NCBI GenBank assembly: GCA_011390695.1
Contig: JAABRW010000036.1
Location: 1-6,693 of the forward strand
DNA: 6,693 nucleotides
From: Desulfotignum sp.
GTDB taxonomy: Bacteria > Desulfobacterota > Desulfobacteria > Desulfobacterales > Desulfobacteraceae
Direction: 5' to 3'
Below, in pieces: positions 1 through 6,693 of this stretch. Made by a program: the position numbers and the translations under genes. Position 1 is the first letter of the stretch. Every line of letters starts with the position of its first letter. Under the pieces are notes generated by a model. It was not told the DNA's origin. It ran no database searches and worked only from the letters and a program-made list of their open reading frames with translations.

Positions 1-321
1 ATTTTTCTGATCCTGATCGGCATGTTCATGGAGACCCTGGCCACCATCATGCTGGTCACGCCGGTACTGCTGCCGGTCATGACCACGCTGGGGGTCGATC
101 CCATTCATTTTGGCATTGTTCTGGTCATGTGCTGTGAAATCGGGTTTGAAACACCGCCGCTGGGAGAAAACCTGTTCATTGCATCCGGGATCGGAAAGGT
201 GAGCATTGAGGAGATTTCCGTTCAAGCCATTCCGTTTTCCTTTGTACAGATAATTGCCGTATTCCTGGTGGCCTATATTCCAGGAATCTGCCTCTGGCTG
301 CCCAAGGTTTTTGGATATTGA
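1..321 (+). CDS. dctM: TRAP transporter large permease (DctM), C-terminal part
   Basis: The gene enters from the left edge in frame 1; 106 residues and the TGA stop are visible, against roughly 430 for the family, so about three quarters lies outside. DctM is the large, multi-spanning inner-membrane subunit of tripartite ATP-independent periplasmic transporters, which use an ion gradient and a periplasmic binding protein to import organic acids, including sulfonates. The visible part is strongly hydrophobic, with spans near residues 1-25, 37-50 and 75-103. It carries the typical C-terminal signature around residues 44-65, with the family's TPP-x-G-x-N-LF-x-ASGI pattern seen here as ETPPLGENLFIASGI. 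The dehydrogenase start lies 124 bases downstream on the same strand, so the transporter probably supplies the substrate of the following genes. Substrate specificity is set mainly by the binding protein, which is not in the window; a sulfonate is inferred from context. Confidence 0.9.
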   Translation: MFLILIGMFMETLATIMLVTPVLLPVMTTLGVDPIHFGIVLVMCCEIGFETPPLGENLFIASGIGKVSIEEISVQAIPFSFVQIIAVFLVAYIPGICLWLPKVFGY

Positions 322-445: not shown

Positions 446-1759
446 ATGTTGCATATCAAAAAAGCGTTGAAAAGCGCTGAATCCCACAGCGAAGAGATCC
501 GGCCCATTGTCCAGGGCCTTTTGGATGAGATCAGAAAAGACAGGGAAAAAGCAGTGCAGAAACTGGCACTGAAGTTTGATAACTGGAAAGATGATTTCAT
601 TCTCAGTGATGAAAAAAGACAGCAGTTGATAGACACAGTGCCGGACCCGGTCAAAGATGATATCCGGTTTGCCCACCAGCAGGTGTCCGCCTTTGCAAAA
701 GCCCAGAGAGACAGCATCCAGGAGTTTGAAACCCAGGCCTATCCCGGGGTGCGCCTGGGGCAGCGGATCATTCCCATGGAGACGGCCGGGTGTTATGTGC
801 CCGGAGGTCGGTTTGCCCATGCCTGTTCCGCCATCATGAGTGTGGCCACGGCAAAAGCGGCCGGGGTCAAGACCGTTATTGCAGCCTCACCGCCCCGGGG
901 GACCAGTATCGATCCGGCCGTGGCCTATGCCATGGATGTGGCCGGCGCAGATATTATCCTTGAGATGGGCGGGGTGCAGGCCATCGCCACCATGGCATTC
1001 GGGTTGTTTACCGGGCAGCCGGCCAACATCATTGCAGGCCCCGGCAACGCCTATGTTGCAGAAGCAAAGGCGATCCTTGCCGGATCCGGTATGTGTGCCA
1101 TAGATGTGTTTGCCGGTCCCACAGAGTCGGCCATCATTGCCGATGACACCGCAGATCCCATGACCATCGCCGTGGACCTGGTATCCCAGGCCGAACACGG
1201 CTATGATTCCCCGGTCTGGCTGTTCACCGATTCCAGAGAACTGGGGGAACAGGTACTCAACATCATGCCCCGGGTGATTGCAGACATGCCGGATCCGGAT
1301 GTGCCGGCATCCTCATGGCGGGATTACGGTGAAATCATTCTTTGCGAAAACCGGGAAGAGATGGCTGCTGTCAGTGACCAATATGCGGCTGAGCATATAC
1401 AGGTAATGACCCGGGATCTTGCATGGTGGTGCAGCAACCTGAAATCCTATGGCTCGCTTTTTCTGGGGGAATACTGCACGGTTCCCCATGGAGATAAATG
1501 TTCCGGCACCAATCATATCCTGCCCACCAAAAAGGCCGGATATTTTTCAGGCGGGCTGAATGTGCATAAGTTCTTAAAAATTTACACCTACCAGGAAATT
1601 GAAAAGCAGGCCTGTGAAGAGATGAGTGCCCGGGCATCCAGGCTTTCCCGGGTGGAGGGCATGGAGGGCCATGCACGGGCCTGTGACTGGCGGTTGAAAA
1701 AATTTTTTCCAGACCAGGACCGGGATTTTAAAGTGTATTCCCAGAAACACTATTCATAA
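446..1759 (+). CDS. Histidinol-dehydrogenase-family enzyme, HpsN-like (sulfonate alcohol dehydrogenase)
   Basis: A 437-residue protein of the zinc- and NAD-dependent histidinol dehydrogenase family, which oxidises a primary alcohol to a carboxylate in two NAD-dependent steps in the cytoplasm. Residues matching the E. coli HisD zinc ligands are present: Q248 and H251 (SQAEHG), D350 (HGDKCSG) and H409 (EGHAR). The catalytic Glu-His pair is E316-H317 (AAEHIQ), and E404 matches HisD E414. It is closer to HpsN (sulfopropanediol 3-dehydrogenase, dihydroxypropanesulfonate to sulfolactate) than to biosynthetic HisD, judged from remembered family sequences: the YGSLFLGE-x3-TV-x2-GDK and NH-x-LPTK stretches and the GGL-x-V-x-KF-x-K segment are HpsN-style. 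No histidine biosynthesis genes are nearby; the neighbours are a TRAP permease, an aminotransferase and cuyA. The likely substrate is a C3 sulfonate alcohol such as dihydroxypropanesulfonate or, by inference, cysteinolate. The ATG at 401 is an alternative but less likely start. Confidence 0.85.
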   Translation: MLHIKKALKSAESHSEEIRPIVQGLLDEIRKDREKAVQKLALKFDNWKDDFILSDEKRQQLIDTVPDPVKDDIRFAHQQVSAFAKAQRDSIQEFETQAYPGVRLGQRIIPMETAGCYVPGGRFAHACSAIMSVATAKAAGVKTVIAASPPRGTSIDPAVAYAMDVAGADIILEMGGVQAIATMAFGLFTGQPANIIAGPGNAYVAEAKAILAGSGMCAIDVFAGPTESAIIADDTADPMTIAVDLVSQAEHGYDSPVWLFTDSRELGEQVLNIMPRVIADMPDPDVPASSWRDYGEIILCENREEMAAVSDQYAAEHIQVMTRDLAWWCSNLKSYGSLFLGEYCTVPHGDKCSGTNHILPTKKAGYFSGGLNVHKFLKIYTYQEIEKQACEEMSARASRLSRVEGMEGHARACDWRLKKFFPDQDRDFKVYSQKHYS

Positions 1760-1775
1760 TACTTTTGCGTAATCC

Positions 1776-1779
1776 GGAG
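1776..1779 (+). promoter_or_regulatory. Ribosome binding site supporting the start at 1789
   Basis: GGAG lies nine bases before the ATG at 1789. An in-frame TTG at 1765 sits only five bases after the upstream stop and lacks a Shine-Dalgarno of its own, so 1789 is preferred. Confidence 0.7.
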
Positions 1780-1788
1780 TCGGTTAAC

Positions 1789-3015
1789 ATGTCAGAACCA
1801 GCTGAACAGACACTTGTTTTTTCAAAAAGTTTTACCCGTCAGGAACCCATTGGCGACCAGGCCATAGAAGCGGCTGTCGCTATTCTGAAATCAGGGCGGA
1901 TTCACCGGTACAATGTCGGCAAAGATGGCATATCCCAGGCTGCTTTGCTGGAAAAGGAATTTGCCGGGTACATGGGAAAAAAATACTGCCTGGCCTGTGC
2001 CTCCTGCGGCAGTGCCATGTACCTGGCTCTGAAAAGTACCGGTGTAAAGGAGAATGAAAAGATCCTGTGCAATGCCTACACCCTGGCCCCGGTTCCGGGT
2101 GCCATTGAAAATGCCGGGGCAAGGATTGTGCTGGTGGAGATCACCGATGATTATACCATTGATTTTGATGATCTGGCTGCCAAGGCAAAGCCCGAAGATG
2201 TCAAATGGTTCATGATGTCCCACATGCGGGGACACATTGCTGATATGGATAAAATCGTTGATATCTGTACGCAGAACAATGTTACCCTGATCGAAGACTG
2301 CGCCCATACCATGGGGGCCAGATGGAACGAGCGGTTGTCCGGCACCTTCGGGGCTGCAGCCTGTTTCAGCACCCAGACCTACAAGCATATCAATTCCGGT
2401 GAAGGCGGTCTGCTGGTGACAGATGACCCGGATCTTATTGCAAAGGCCATCATCTATTCCGGATCATACATGAATTATGACCGGCACCTTTCCAGACCGG
2501 ATGACGCGGTGTTTGATGCCATAAGAGAGATTGTTCCCAACTACTCCTGCCGCATGGACAATTTGCGGGCCGCCATATTGCGGCCTCAGATACAGACCCT
2601 TGATGCCCAGTGCGAAAGATGGAACCGCAGATACCGCCTGCTTGAATCCCGCCTGAACCAGATACCGGGCATTCACTGTCCGCAGCGGGACCCAAAAGAA
2701 CAGTATGTGGGCAGTTCCATTCAGTTCACGCTGGATACGGACAATGAAACCGTGATCCGGCGGTTTCTGGATACCTGTCTGGCCCGGGGCGTTGAACTCA
2801 AATGGTTCGGCAACAAAAAGCCGGTGGGGTTCACCAGCGCCTATACCAGCTGGAAATATTTTGACAATCTGCCCGATTTGCCCAATACTGACAGAGTATT
2901 GTTCAAAATGTGCGATATGAGAATCCCGCTGACCTTTGATCTGGCAGACTGCGAGAAGATCGCACAGATAATTGCAGATGTGGCTGACCGGATATTGCCC
3001 CGGGAGGCTGCATAA
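1789..3015 (+). CDS. DegT/DnrJ/EryC1/StrS-family PLP aminotransferase
   Basis: A 408-residue fold-type I PLP enzyme of the DegT/DnrJ/EryC1/StrS family, a usual family length. D170 in LIEDCAH is the aspartate expected to pair with the pyridine nitrogen, and K199 in TYKHINSGEGG is the expected Schiff-base lysine in front of the family GEGG motif. S72-CGS-A76 occupies the phosphate-binding position where most members have a G-T-A motif. Members usually transfer an amino group from glutamate or glutamine to keto-sugars in cell-surface or antibiotic sugar pathways. No sugar-nucleotide or polysaccharide genes are here. The gene starts 29 bases after the HisD-like stop and ends 59 bases before cuyA, so it probably acts on a sulfonate intermediate, for example sulfopyruvate/cysteate or a keto form of cysteinolate. 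That substrate is inference; the family and catalytic residues are clear. Reading from TTG at 1765 would give 416 residues. Confidence 0.85.
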   Translation: MSEPAEQTLVFSKSFTRQEPIGDQAIEAAVAILKSGRIHRYNVGKDGISQAALLEKEFAGYMGKKYCLACASCGSAMYLALKSTGVKENEKILCNAYTLAPVPGAIENAGARIVLVEITDDYTIDFDDLAAKAKPEDVKWFMMSHMRGHIADMDKIVDICTQNNVTLIEDCAHTMGARWNERLSGTFGAAACFSTQTYKHINSGEGGLLVTDDPDLIAKAIIYSGSYMNYDRHLSRPDDAVFDAIREIVPNYSCRMDNLRAAILRPQIQTLDAQCERWNRRYRLLESRLNQIPGIHCPQRDPKEQYVGSSIQFTLDTDNETVIRRFLDTCLARGVELKWFGNKKPVGFTSAYTSWKYFDNLPDLPNTDRVLFKMCDMRIPLTFDLADCEKIAQIIADVADRILPREAA

Positions 3016-3074
3016 GAAATCTACGATTTTTTTTATTACCCGAAACCCTGATTTAAATAAAAAGGAATATCCCC

Positions 3075-4076
3075 ATGAATTTTGCACAATTTCCCAGAAG
3101 AAAATACATTCACACCCCCACACCCATCGAGCCCATGCCGGCGTTAAGCAAACGTCTTGGTAAGGATATCACCCTGTATGTGAAACGTGACGACCTGCTT
3201 CCCGGTGCAGGCGGGGGCAACAAAACCAGAAAACTGGAGTTCTGCATTGCCGATGCCATGGAAAAAAAGGCGGACACCATCATCACCTGCGGTGCGGTGC
3301 AGTCCAACCACTGCCGCCTGACCCTGGCCTGGGCTGTGAAAGAAGGCCTTGACTGCCACCTGGTGCTGGAAGAGCGGGTGAAAGGCTCTTATAAAAAAGA
3401 GGCCAGTGGCAACAATTTTCTGTTTGAACTCATGGGGGTAAAAAGCATCGAGGTGATGCCCGGCGGAACCGATATGATGGGTGCCATGGAAAAAAAAGCT
3501 GCCGAACTTGAGGCAAAAGGCAGACATCCCTATATTATTCCAGGGGGGGCATCCAATGCCATCGGTGCGCTGGGATATGTGTCGTGTGCTGCAGAAACAA
3601 TGACACAGCTTAACGACATGCACCTGAATATTGACCATATTGTTGTGCCGTCCGGATCTGCAGGCACCCATGCCGGTATGGTTGTGGGTATGGTGGGCTC
3701 CAGCAGCAATATTCCGGTCAGCGGTATCAATGTGTCCAGAAAAAAGGATATCCAGGAGGAAATCGTATATAAACTGGCTCTTGAAACAGCAAAGAAACTG
3801 GGGATAAGCACTGCAATGGACCGCAAATCGTTTGTGTGTTTTGACCAGTATGTGGGGCCGGGGTATTCAATCCCCACAGATGCCATGGTGGAAGCGGTAA
3901 AGCTGTTTGCACAGACCGAGTCGATTCTCCTGGATCCGGTCTATTCAGGCAAGACCGCAGCCGGATTGATTGATCTGATCAGAAAAGACCATTTCACACC
4001 CGGCGCAAAGGTGTTGTTTCTCCATACCGGCGGATCTCCAGCCCTGTATGCCTATATGGATACCTTTCGAAAATAG
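3075..4076 (+). CDS. cuyA: L-cysteate sulfo-lyase (CuyA-like), copy 1
   Basis: A 333-residue PLP-dependent enzyme of the D-cysteine desulfhydrase / ACC deaminase family. CuyA cleaves L-cysteate to pyruvate, ammonia and sulfite. K50 in GGNKTRKLEF is the expected PLP lysine, S77-N78-H79 forms the conserved QSNH motif, and SGSAGTHAG at 193-201 is the phosphate-binding loop. The insertion LEERVKGSY (98-106) followed by EASGNNFLF (109-117) matches remembered CuyA proteins and differs from DcyD of enteric bacteria, which favours cysteate over D-cysteine. The start has an AAAGGA at 3061-3066, eight bases before ATG, and the N-terminus agrees with copy 2. Neighbours are the aminotransferase upstream and an aspartate-type racemase downstream, which would let both cysteate enantiomers be used. 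D-cysteine desulfhydrase activity remains possible. Confidence 0.82.
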   Translation: MNFAQFPRRKYIHTPTPIEPMPALSKRLGKDITLYVKRDDLLPGAGGGNKTRKLEFCIADAMEKKADTIITCGAVQSNHCRLTLAWAVKEGLDCHLVLEERVKGSYKKEASGNNFLFELMGVKSIEVMPGGTDMMGAMEKKAAELEAKGRHPYIIPGGASNAIGALGYVSCAAETMTQLNDMHLNIDHIVVPSGSAGTHAGMVVGMVGSSSNIPVSGINVSRKKDIQEEIVYKLALETAKKLGISTAMDRKSFVCFDQYVGPGYSIPTDAMVEAVKLFAQTESILLDPVYSGKTAAGLIDLIRKDHFTPGAKVLFLHTGGSPALYAYMDTFRK

Positions 4077-4112
4077 CCGTCAGAAATAGACACCAGGAAT
4101 TGCCGTCAGAAA
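4076..4112. repeat. 11-base direct repeat after cuyA copy 1
   Basis: GCCGTCAGAAA occurs at 4076-4086, beginning on the last base of the cuyA stop codon, and again at 4102-4112, 26 bases later. The sequence between and after the copies does not continue the similarity. It may be a small slippage duplication or a paired protein-binding site; nothing in the window decides. Confidence 0.5.
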
Positions 4113-4137
4113 CAGCCGACATGCAGATAAACGAACA

Positions 4138-4167
4138 GCAGCCGCCCTTACATTTCAGGGCGACTGC
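4138..4167 (+). other. Imperfect hairpin between cuyA and racemase genes
   Basis: GCAGCCGCCC (4138-4147) can pair with GGGCGACTGC (4158-4167): nine of ten positions pair, with one C-A mismatch, around a 10-base loop. No T-run follows, so it does not look like an intrinsic terminator. In the transcript it would sit 48 bases before the racemase start and might protect the upstream mRNA end or lower racemase expression relative to cuyA. No role is shown by sequence alone. Confidence 0.5.
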
Positions 4168-4215
4168 TCTGACATTGCAGCCTGGCGGACAGACATTTGA
4201 GAGAAAGCAGAGAAC

Positions 4216-4923
4216 ATGACACAAACCCGTGAAAAAATTGTGGGCATCATCGGCGGAATGGGACCTGAGGCCACAGTGGACCTTATGCAGCGCATCATCC
4301 GCCTGACCCCGGCCACAGATGACAAGGACCATATCCGGTGCATTGTGGACAACAACCCCAAGGTGCCTTCTCGGATCAAGGCCATTATTGAAGGGGACGG
4401 AGAAGACCCCGGGCCGGTCATGGCAGACATGGGCCGGCGGCTGGAGGCCTGGGGCGCTGACTTTCTGGTAATCCCCTGCAACACAGCCCACTATTATTAT
4501 GATGCGGTGCAGCAGGCGGTCAACATACCCGTTGTCAACATGGTCGACCGGGTGGTGGAACAGGTGAAAACAAGGTATAGCAAAGAGAAAAAGATCGGGA
4601 TGCTGGCCTCTCCTGCCGTGGCCATGACAAAGCTTTACACCAGAGGCTTTGATGAATCGTTGGGAATGACGGAAGTCTGGCCGGATCCCGAACGCCAGGA
4701 CCTTCTTTTCCGTATCATCCGGCAGGTGAAGACCGGCCGCATTTCCCCGGATCTTCACCTGCAGTATGCCCGGGTCTGTCAGTATTTAAAGGCCCAGGGC
4801 GTCCGGGTGGCCATTGTGGCGTGCACGGAACTGAGCGCCCTGGGCGGAGACCTGCCCCTTGACACCATTGATGCTTCCCAGGTACTGGCCGAAGAGATCG
4901 TCCGGATTGTAAAAAATTCATAA
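4216..4923 (+). CDS. Aspartate/glutamate racemase-family protein, probable cysteate racemase
   Basis: A 235-residue, cofactor-independent amino-acid racemase of the Asp/Glu racemase family, full length for the family. The N-terminal IGGMGPEAT motif (12-20) is typical of aspartate racemases. Both catalytic cysteines are present: C88 in VIPCNTAHY and C203 in VACTELS, so two-base proton exchange should work in either direction. Aspartate and cysteate differ only in carboxylate versus sulfonate, and the gene follows cuyA by 139 bases on the same strand. The most economical role is interconversion of D- and L-cysteate to feed the L-specific lyase; aspartate racemase activity cannot be excluded. 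The Shine-Dalgarno is weak (GAGAGAAAG at 4199-4207). A decayed relative of this gene lies immediately downstream on the opposite strand. Confidence 0.8.
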   Translation: MTQTREKIVGIIGGMGPEATVDLMQRIIRLTPATDDKDHIRCIVDNNPKVPSRIKAIIEGDGEDPGPVMADMGRRLEAWGADFLVIPCNTAHYYYDAVQQAVNIPVVNMVDRVVEQVKTRYSKEKKIGMLASPAVAMTKLYTRGFDESLGMTEVWPDPERQDLLFRIIRQVKTGRISPDLHLQYARVCQYLKAQGVRVAIVACTELSALGGDLPLDTIDASQVLAEEIVRIVKNS

Positions 4924-5218: not shown

Positions 5219-6220
5219 TTACTGCCTAAACGTATCCATATAAGCATACAAGGCAGGTGATCCGCCAGTATGAAGGAACAATACATTAGATCCTTTCGAA
5301 AAATGACCTTTACGCACAATATCAATGAGGCCTGCAGCTGTTTTACCTGAATATACCGGATCAAGAAGAATAGCCTCATTTTTGGCAAAGAGCTTCACTG
5401 CTTCAACCATAGCATCTGTCGGTACAGAATAGCCAGGGCCGACATACTGGTCAAAACATACAATATCTTCCCGCTTAACTCCGCTTTTTACATCAAGTCT
5501 TTCCGCTGTATCCACTGCCAGTTTGTAAACAATATCTTCCTGAATATCTTTGGCTCTTGATACATTCACGCCACTAATGGGAATATTACCGTTTACACCT
5601 GTCATGCCGACCACCATACCTGCGTGGGTGCCTGCAGACCCGGAAGGCACCACAATGTGATTTATTTTAAGCCGCATGTCATTGAGCTGGGTCATGGTTT
5701 CTTCAGCGCAGGCTGCATACCCTGTGGCACCGATCGTATTAGAGGCTCCACCTGGAATGATATAGGGTTTTTTACCAGCAATGGTAAGCTCATCAGCTTT
5801 TTTACCCATCTCTGCCATCATATCTGAACCACCCTCAACAACAGTAATACTTTTAACACCAAGCAGTTCAAACAAAAAATTGTTTCCGCTGGCCTCTTGC
5901 TTATAAGAGCCTTTAACCCGCTCTTCAAGGACCAGGTGGCAATCGAGGCCTTCTTTGGCAGACCAGGAGGCGGTCAGTCTTGCATGGTTTGACTGGACAG
6001 CACCACAGGTAATGATAGTATTTGCTCTTTTCTCAAGAGCATCTGCCATGCAGAATTCGAGTTTTCTGGTTTTATTCCCACCAGCACAACCAGGAAGCAG
6101 GTCATCACGTTTCACATAAAGATTTATATCTCCCCCAAGTGCTTTGCTTAATGCCGGCATGGGTTCAATAGGTGTTGGACCTTGTAAATATTTTCTTCTG
6201 GGAAATTTTGTAAAATTCAT
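5219..6220 (-). CDS. cuyA: L-cysteate sulfo-lyase (CuyA-like), copy 2
   Basis: A second 333-residue CuyA-family PLP enzyme. It aligns with copy 1 without gaps and differs at about 76 positions by hand count, about 77% identity. PLP lysine K50, the QSNH motif (76-79), the GSY-x2-EASGNN stretch (104-114) and the SGSAGTHAG loop (193-201) are all kept. Near the active site, copy 1 GAGGGNK is GCAGGNK here and copy 1 SNHCR is SNHAR. The most divergent stretches are 136-151 and about 240-258, probably surface regions. The start at 6220 gives MNFTKFPRRKY, matching copy 1; an upstream in-frame start at 6310 would add 30 residues with no counterpart. The gene follows the GntR regulator by 73 bases on the same strand and is more AT-rich than copy 1 (sampled lines 40-55% GC against 57%). 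It may be a differently regulated or transferred paralogue. D-cysteine desulfhydrase activity is the alternative. Confidence 0.82.
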   Translation of the reverse strand: MNFTKFPRRKYLQGPTPIEPMPALSKALGGDINLYVKRDDLLPGCAGGNKTRKLEFCMADALEKRANTIITCGAVQSNHARLTASWSAKEGLDCHLVLEERVKGSYKQEASGNNFLFELLGVKSITVVEGGSDMMAEMGKKADELTIAGKKPYIIPGGASNTIGATGYAACAEETMTQLNDMRLKINHIVVPSGSAGTHAGMVVGMTGVNGNIPISGVNVSRAKDIQEDIVYKLAVDTAERLDVKSGVKREDIVCFDQYVGPGYSVPTDAMVEAVKLFAKNEAILLDPVYSGKTAAGLIDIVRKGHFSKGSNVLFLHTGGSPALYAYMDTFRQ

Positions 6221-6226
6221 TTTGTA

Positions 6227-6232
6227 TCCTCT
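6227..6232 (-). promoter_or_regulatory. Ribosome binding site of cuyA copy 2
   Basis: On the minus strand AGAGGA lies six bases before the ATG at 6220, a strong Shine-Dalgarno that fixes this start over the in-frame start at 6310. Confidence 0.75.
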
Positions 6233-6293
6233 CTTTTGAAATATTAGTGTAAATTTTAGATCAATTGTTATTTGGTCAGAATTGTTTTGATTT

Positions 6294-6693
6294 TTATTCT
6301 TTATACACATCTACGCCAAAAACAGACATCCTTTCACCCGATTCCATATAATGATTTCTAATCACAAACTCAATAACTTGGGGGTCTTTTGTTTTTAATG
6401 CTTCAATAATTTCTTTATGTCGTTCGTAGACTCTTATTGCAGGAAACAATTTAACCCACTGTCTGTATAGGAGAAATTTTGAAATTCCCTGACACGTTCG
6501 ACGGCAAAGTTCAACAATTAATTCATTGTCAATGCGGGAAAAAAGAAGATCATGGAAAGCTTTATCCAATGGAGCTTGATCTGATACAGAACCGCAGTTG
6601 TTTGCAACCTGTTTCATTTTTGAAATGATCTCTGCCAATTCAGCAATATCTTTATCAGTATAATGCTCTATGGCCTGTGCTACTGCAGCCGCT
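6294..6693 (-). CDS. GntR-family transcriptional regulator, FCD ligand-binding domain (5' end missing)
   Basis: The gene enters from the right edge on the minus strand; about 133 C-terminal residues are visible and the reading frame stays open to the edge, so the N-terminal winged-helix DNA-binding domain lies outside. The visible part is an all-helical FCD domain of the FadR/VanR branch. Candidate metal ligands are the Asp and His of LDKAFHDLL, the His of YERHKEIIEAL and the His of VIRNHYMES, matching the D-x3-H ... H ... H arrangement of this domain, which usually binds organic-acid effectors. It sits 73 bases upstream of cuyA copy 2 on the same strand and so probably controls that unit in response to a sulfonate or breakdown product; this is inference. 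Its base composition is AT-rich (sampled lines 28% and 42% GC), unlike the plus-strand operon. Confidence 0.85.
   Translation of the reverse strand, partial: AAAVAQAIEHYTDKDIAELAEIISKMKQVANNCGSVSDQAPLDKAFHDLLFSRIDNELIVELCRRTCQGISKFLLYRQWVKLFPAIRVYERHKEIIEALKTKDPQVIEFVIRNHYMESGERMSVFGVDVYKE

Follow-up and report, generated by a model that had tools for sequence, protein, structure and literature searches.

Which substrate is degraded by an operon that joins a dehydrogenase of the histidinol dehydrogenase (HisD)/HpsN type to the enzymes of cysteate cleavage? This question is raised by a stretch of DNA from Desulfotignum sp. (GenBank assembly GCA_011390695.1, contig JAABRW010000036.1, forward strand), which comprises 6,693 nucleotides and is called the window here. 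In it, genes for an HpsN-type dehydrogenase, a DegT-type aminotransferase, the lyase CuyA and the racemase CuyB lie one behind the other. Based on gene families and their neighbourhoods in related genomes we lean towards an operon that imports cysteinolate (2-amino-3-hydroxypropane-1-sulfonate) and degrades it via cysteate, and a route ending in cysteate cleavage is highly likely. The genes concerned are the following:

446..1759, forward strand: HpsN/HisD-type dehydrogenase dependent on nicotinamide adenine dinucleotide (NAD) and zinc (PF00815, TIGR00069, match to structure 8v35)
1765..3015, forward strand: DegT/DnrJ/EryC1/StrS-type aminotransferase dependent on pyridoxal phosphate (PLP) (PF01041, 188 bits against a cut-off of 19.8)
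3075..4076, forward strand: CuyA, D-cysteate sulfo-lyase (NF052482, 531 bits against a cut-off of 450)
4216..4923, forward strand: CuyB, cysteate racemase (NF052483, 276 bits against a cut-off of 190)
1..321, forward strand: DctM, large subunit of a tripartite ATP-independent periplasmic (TRAP) transporter, C-terminal part (PF06808, 92 bits against a cut-off of 23.8)

An earlier annotation made from the letters alone (the sequence-only reading) had recognised a HisD/HpsN-type enzyme with a racemase and a cysteate lyase, and profile and structure matches confirmed these gene identities and positions; the curated family models NF052482 and NF052483 give good support to the end of its pathway (cysteate, racemase, CuyA). 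HpsN, DegT, CuyA and CuyB are co-directional with gaps of 5, 59 and 139 bases, as judged by the ends of the open reading frames. DegT probably starts with the ATG at 1789 rather than with the TTG at 1765, which would make the HpsN-DegT gap 29 bases instead of 5; its nearest homologue (P0001) has 408 amino acids, the length expected from the ATG. The remainder of DctM lies upstream, outside the window, and in the Desulfotignum locus L001 an IclR regulator, DctP, DctQ and DctM precede HpsN in this order. The HpsN-DegT-CuyA-CuyB order was found again in L001 and L002, and the closest named relatives of the window are Desulfotignum metagenome-assembled genomes (MAGs), with 95-96% identity in the dehydrogenase.

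Conservation of the module was examined with the DegT protein alone as query in a sample of Desulfotignum's class comprising 389 genomes, one locus being taken per genome. DegT matches were found in 41 genomes, and in 39 of the 41 loci HpsN lies immediately upstream on the same strand, the exceptions being L068 and L069, the contig of the latter starting inside DegT. Within about 8 kb, CuyA is present in 30 loci, CuyB in 28 and both in 27; this co-occurrence in relatives, which the sequence-only reading had put forward as a check, exceeds what chance would give. RidA (25 loci), DctM (25) and GntR/FCD regulators (18) are further partners. The identity thresholds for these counts were chosen by us, matches below them being inspected as well, and several contigs are short, so that the presences counted are minimum values and the absences carry less weight than the counts suggest.

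HpsP, SuyA, SuyB and ComC gave no match in any of the 41 DegT loci, HpsO gave only two weak ones (31% and 25%, both in L056), and no further dehydrogenase was seen among the identified recurrent families, a few families of 3-5 loci being left unidentified. The setting of a canonical 3-dehydrogenase for 2,3-dihydroxypropane-1-sulfonate (DHPS), that is hpsO/hpsP with suyAB, or slcD/comC, was not found in these loci, where all of these but SlcD were searched for. HpsN itself matched in 56 of the 389 genomes. HpsN with at least 57% identity occurs in 42 genomes, 40 of which also have DegT (exceptions: G356 and G130), and none of the 14 genomes with only weaker HpsN (<57%) has DegT; the 57% line was set post hoc after the searches had been seen, agrees with the tree described below and separates related genomes, which are not independent. 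At 12 canonical HpsN loci (L121-L131 and L135), which come from Enterovibrio, Labrenzia's class and the class of Desulfotignum, HpsO and HpsP are each present in 11 and SuyB is present in 6, and none has DegT, CuyA or CuyB; L130, which stands outside the 11, is a short contig. Both kinds of HpsN are present in G003, G274, G127 and G007, the canonical copy being adjoined by hpsO, hpsP and suyAB in G003, G274 and G007 and being L130 in G127.

In an HpsN tree, a quick one computed without bootstrap and with labels set by hand, all 45 rows labelled DegT fall into one clade of 54 rows with a support of 99 in the Shimodaira-Hasegawa-like approximate likelihood ratio test (SH-aLRT). Outside this clade stand the alphaproteobacterial DegT-linked L118 and L119, on long branches, and L108, where the two genes share a locus and are not adjacent. 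Nine of the 41 loci contributed no sequence to the tree, owing to cut sequences, lack of HpsN or repetition of earlier loci. Rows below 330 residues or with stops were dropped beforehand, as were the repeats L031-L045, L070, L071, L084, L085, L004 and L140; repeats from L086-L088 and L091 were kept as 'other', and L141-L152, weak matches that we regard as histidinol dehydrogenases, had been retrieved for the comparison of pocket residues given below and were left aside. The pathway is likely to be distinct from canonical DHPS degradation.

The window dehydrogenase scores 420 bits with PF00815 and 399 bits with TIGR00069 (cut-off 244), a model that spans both the HisD and the HpsN branches, so that passing it does not separate them. 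Among solved structures it is closest to that of sulfopropanediol 3-dehydrogenase HpsN (8v35, 491 bits) and to that of (R)-DHPS dehydrogenase (8wwe, 431 bits), whereas histidinol dehydrogenases score just 198-216 bits. The motif of HpsN is G-R-Y-A/S-H, with the sulfonate-binding His, and that of HisD is G-S-A-P-L, without His126 (PMC11382572). The window has GRFAH and not G-S-A-P-L, with Phe in place of Tyr, as in 10 of 27 canonical rows. A role in histidine biosynthesis was rejected on scores, motif and neighbours; the likeness to HisD lies in the common Pfam family and in the four-electron oxidation of an amino alcohol that we propose for the window enzyme.

In CpHpsN, zinc, His126 and Lys353 hold the sulfonate, the C2 substituent lies on zinc, and L-cysteate sits in the site as R-sulfolactate does (PMC11382572). 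The clade of the window enzyme shares the fold family of 8v35 and 8wwe and keeps the sulfonate-binding His and Lys in 49 of 49 rows and the motif Arg in 46 of 49, together with the zinc ligands and the catalytic Glu318/His319. Equivalents of His126, Gln248, His251, Glu318, Asp352, Lys353 and His359 are present in all 49 rows each, that of His319 in 48 of 49 (one Asp) and that of His411 in 48 of 48; this comparison omits twelve rows (repeats, deep outliers, L108, L118, L119 and L133). The difference from 8v35 and 8wwe is the separate clade with its linkage to DegT and mostly CuyA/CuyB, not HpsO/HpsP. Since the sulfonate-binding, zinc and catalytic residues are kept, we expect a C3 sulfonate that carries OH or NH2 at C2. 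The retained residues would suit either group, and it is the gene partners that point to the amine, through the cysteate endings, the lack of HpsP, SuyAB and ComC, and taurine-type transporters. Ser247 and Thr355, considered as pocket residues that might discriminate, are present in 49 of 49 clade rows and were rejected, as they also occur in canonical rows (3 and 6 of 27) and in 8wwe.

An OH group at C2 would correspond to a DHPS route, in which HpsN would oxidise R-DHPS to R-sulfolactate, an unlinked dehydrogenase would form sulfopyruvate, DegT would convert this to L-cysteate, and CuyB and CuyA would follow. The need for a sulfolactate dehydrogenase was addressed by searching the ComC family (PF02615) genome-wide in 11 genomes (G001-G011). 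It is absent from the whole of G001-G006, including the isolate Desulfoluna butyratoxydans, in a search that did not extend to the SlcC and SlcD types, and is present in Enterovibrio G007 and G008 (2 copies each), G009 (3), G010 (2) and Labrenzia G011 (1). The absence of ComC supports the cysteinolate reading and does not prove it. The DHPS route would give DegT an obligatory step, R-DHPS fits the active site, the corresponding aminotransferase is unidentified in Ruegeria pomeroyi, hpsN with cuyA has already been counted as such a route (both PMC11382572), and the ComC-family genes of G007, G008 and G009 could serve it. However, ComC is missing from all 41 loci as well as from G001-G006, the loci hold no HpsP or clear HpsO, some genomes have a separate canonical HpsN copy, and variant loci carry taurine-type transporters, which makes this route unlikely. 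The preference of the sequence-only reading for cysteinolate over DHPS thus gains indirect support from the 41 loci without HpsP, SuyAB, ComC or any HpsO above 31%, from the separate clade, the second canonical HpsN copies and the taurine-type transporters, while the substrate itself is what we infer. It had named a sulfolactate dehydrogenase gene next to these genes in the operon as the sign against itself; for the ComC family, the type that was searched, none was seen there.

DegT, which of all the genes has the closest linkage to HpsN, went unnamed in the sequence-only reading, and direct oxidation of cysteinolate to cysteate as proposed there leaves it without a job. The protein belongs to the DegT/DnrJ/EryC1/StrS family by profile and by Lys207 (numbered from the TTG), which we take to be the PLP-bearing lysine, is conserved in 76 of 76 rows and aligns with the lysine of 2c7t. 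It shares these features with sugar and cyclitol aminotransferases (2c7t and others) and differs from them in its sulfonate neighbours and in that the named sugar-transaminase models all remain far under their cut-offs (e.g. PseC, 124 against 423.5 bits). An enzyme of surface sugars was therefore rejected for this locus. Solved DegT relatives carry names for cyclic or sugar ketones, and their substrates are ring or sugar ketones next to hydroxyls. We propose that DegT is an aminotransferase for cysteinolate and 2-oxo-3-hydroxypropanesulfonate, two compounds found together in phytoplankton (PMC11131964).

The same enzyme would be obligatory if 2-oxo-3-hydroxypropanesulfonate itself were imported, or arose from DHPS oxidised at C2 elsewhere, with DegT forming cysteinolate and HpsN oxidising this to L-cysteate. 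The ketones after which the solved relatives are named and the joint occurrence in phytoplankton agree with such a scheme, but the loci show no recurrent C2 dehydrogenase and the taurine-type transporters of the variants suit an amine better, so that we regard it as quite improbable.

With cysteinolate as imported substrate, we favour the following route. Cysteinolate would be taken up by the TRAP transporter, and the HpsN-type enzyme would convert its primary alcohol to L-cysteate through two NAD-dependent oxidations at a single zinc site, in the manner of HisD acting on histidinol. CuyB would turn L-cysteate into D-cysteate, and CuyA would cleave the latter to pyruvate, ammonia and sulfite; RidA, common in relatives and not seen in the window, would clear 2-aminoacrylate, and sulfite could serve as electron acceptor in a sulfate reducer. 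DegT would most likely interconvert cysteinolate and 2-oxo-3-hydroxypropanesulfonate and would in this way allow the ketone, or cysteinolate of the opposite configuration, to enter as well in the form accepted by HpsN. L-cysteate is R, and replacing COOH by CH2OH keeps the priorities; by our own reasoning the matching cysteinolate would therefore be R, the configuration that HpsN accepts in DHPS, and algal cysteinolic acid has been reported under both L- and D-names (titles cited in PMC8703288). CuyA prefers D-cysteate and CuyB interconverts L- and D-cysteate, so L-cysteate as product would explain why CuyB acts before CuyA (PMC11382572), which older work called an L-cysteate lyase (PMC10507020). 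In the order of oxidation, racemisation and CuyA cleavage given by the sequence-only reading, the racemase suits a preceding step that forms L-cysteate, with the correction that CuyA is now named a D-cysteate lyase.

Several points weigh against this route. No active-site residue sets the clade apart from DHPS dehydrogenases, so that it may act on R-DHPS. The L-cysteate complex of CpHpsN is a product or inhibitor complex, a term search finds no cysteinolate in the publication on it, and a 2024 survey counts hpsN with cuyA, in some cases in Thermodesulfobacteria, as a DHPS pathway (both PMC11382572). Enterovibrio G007 and G008 have genes of the ComC family, as does G009, a Desulfobacula MAG with the DegT operon, and the genome-wide search covered only this type of sulfolactate dehydrogenase in 11 genomes, the SlcC and SlcD types lying outside it. 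Seven of the 41 loci, some on cut contigs, have neither CuyA, CuyB nor the gene related to threonine synthase (ThrC) described below. Finally, twelve DegT loci in other classes lack these partners, and L106 has DegT, CuyA and CuyB with no HpsN nearby.

Some loci have a different ending. In L066 and L067, IclR, HpsN, DegT and RidA are joined by a ThrC-like PLP enzyme, named threonine synthase in NCBIfam, in place of CuyA/CuyB. Relatives of it occur about 5 kb from DegT in L059 (77%), beside HpsN-DegT in L118 (54%) and upstream of HpsN in G360 (L139, 77%). It looks like a lyase that replaces the D-specific ending and would need no racemase. CuyA, sought elsewhere in 12 genomes (one included by mistake), exceeded the cut-off in four (G176, G179, G209 and G249); in G275, G278 and G230 no proven CuyA was found and no ThrC-like gene was seen in their loci. 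A binding protein of a taurine-type ATP-binding cassette (ABC) transporter lies beside HpsN-DegT in L064, L065, L118, L119 and L134; that of L065 passes TIGR01729 (381 against 304 bits) and its counterpart in L059 passes no such cut-off. The order CuyA, HpsN, DegT, TRAP, CuyB is that of L101, L102, the two Enterovibrio loci L009 and L010 and the alphaproteobacterial L105. Two clade HpsN copies lie about 13-17 kb apart on one contig in G004:C7 (L005 and L012), G300:C1 and G209:C93, the second Desulfoluna copy (L012) having no DegT beside it.

MttB-family methyltransferase genes lie beside clade HpsN in L063 (6453-7934, reverse strand), L061 (1552-3022), L132 and L139. In L063 and L061 the gene directly follows DegT and a single in-frame TAG divides it into two parts, an arrangement also seen in trimethylamine methyltransferases of the pyrrolysine type. 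A URO-D/MtaA-CmuA-like methyltransferase gene is found near HpsN-DegT in 4 of the 41 loci (L053:13136-14311, L064:7394-8557, L082:10753-11877 and L083:6612-7736). Both kinds of gene would fit another or N-methylated aminosulfonate as substrate, demethylated first in some lineages. They are, however, absent from the window and most loci (MttB above 40% identity in 2 of 41, UroD in 4 of 41) and are likely chance neighbours, as Desulfobacterota have many MttB genes; this substrate is very improbable.

Outside the class, DegT matched in 5 of 197 genomes of Enterovibrio's order and in 16 of 289 of Labrenzia's class. We examined 20 loci, which represent 4 genomes of the order and 15 of the class, with Enterovibrio G007 corresponding to L009 and G728 left out. 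HpsN is directly upstream in 5 of them, and CuyA and CuyB occur without adjacent HpsN in 2 (L106 and L108). In a DegT tree rooted on L120, a 37% outgroup, with rows from L086-L100 dropped as repeats, lone copies (L103, L104, L107 and L109-L117) are nested among HpsN-linked ones, which suggests, though it falls short of showing, an HpsN link older than the lone state. No clear pathway emerged from the scanned neighbours of these outside loci. A roseobacter sulfonolipid has cysteinolic acid as its head group (PMC11631085), and lone alphaproteobacterial DegT may work in reverse to make this head group; DegT is not listed in a gene table of sulfonolipid producers (PMC8319176). At L106:3912-14589, DegT, CuyA and CuyB are accompanied by a hydrolase of the arginase family and an ABC transporter of the betaine/choline type, which may represent a different way of reaching cysteate.

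It is possible, though we stop short of calling it probable, that these loci reflect an undescribed, widespread cysteinolate route in Desulfobacterota, Gammaproteobacteria and Alphaproteobacteria. It would combine a dedicated HpsN-derived dehydrogenase and a first cysteinolate/2-oxo-3-hydroxypropanesulfonate aminotransferase with interchangeable endings, either CuyB and CuyA or a ThrC-like L-cysteate lyase and RidA, lone alphaproteobacterial DegT maybe running in reverse. Cysteinolic acid is a widespread solute of marine microalgae with an intracellular range like that of DHPS (PMC8703288). If the cysteinolate reading is true, a common gene cluster of sulfate reducers ties this algal compound to sulfite and sulfide, genes annotated as histidinol or sulfopropanediol dehydrogenase and sugar aminotransferase receive a testable function, and metagenome counts of hpsN overstate DHPS use. 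The literature searched yielded no description of bacterial cysteinolic acid breakdown, although a 2022 review cited in PMC11631085 may discuss its metabolism, and no paper on HpsN together with DegT. The link of hpsN and cuyA was already known (PMC11382572); relative to the literature searched, the present analysis adds the association with DegT and CuyB and the distinct clade.

The CuyA-type DHPS/sulfolactate pathway of Ruegeria pomeroyi and Roseovarius nubinhibens likewise has HpsN and CuyA and converts cysteate to pyruvate, ammonia and sulfite. It uses HpsNOP and SlcD, with aminotransferase and racemase unidentified (PMC11382572), whereas the window operon has DegT and CuyB and lacks HpsO/HpsP and ComC. 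Desulfovibrio sp. DF1 and Taurinivorans muris are also anaerobes that release sulfite from C3 sulfonates, but with different gene sets, namely DhpA, SlaB and SuyAB, or SlcC, ComC and SuyAB (PMC6278857, PMC10507020).

Downstream of the operon the window contains two further genes:

5219..6220, reverse strand: second CuyA copy (NF052482, 523 bits against a cut-off of 450)
6294..6692, reverse strand: GntR-type regulator, FCD-domain part, open at the window edge (PF07729, 52.6 bits against 24.3)

The second CuyA is 77% identical to the first and forms a separate, convergent unit with the FCD regulator upstream of it, perhaps for cysteate utilisation. The regulator is 88% identical to the one beside the second CuyA in L073, and the unit of CuyA and its own FCD-type regulator (5219-6692, reverse strand) is kept there at L073:11518-12987 (CuyA 77%, regulator 88%).

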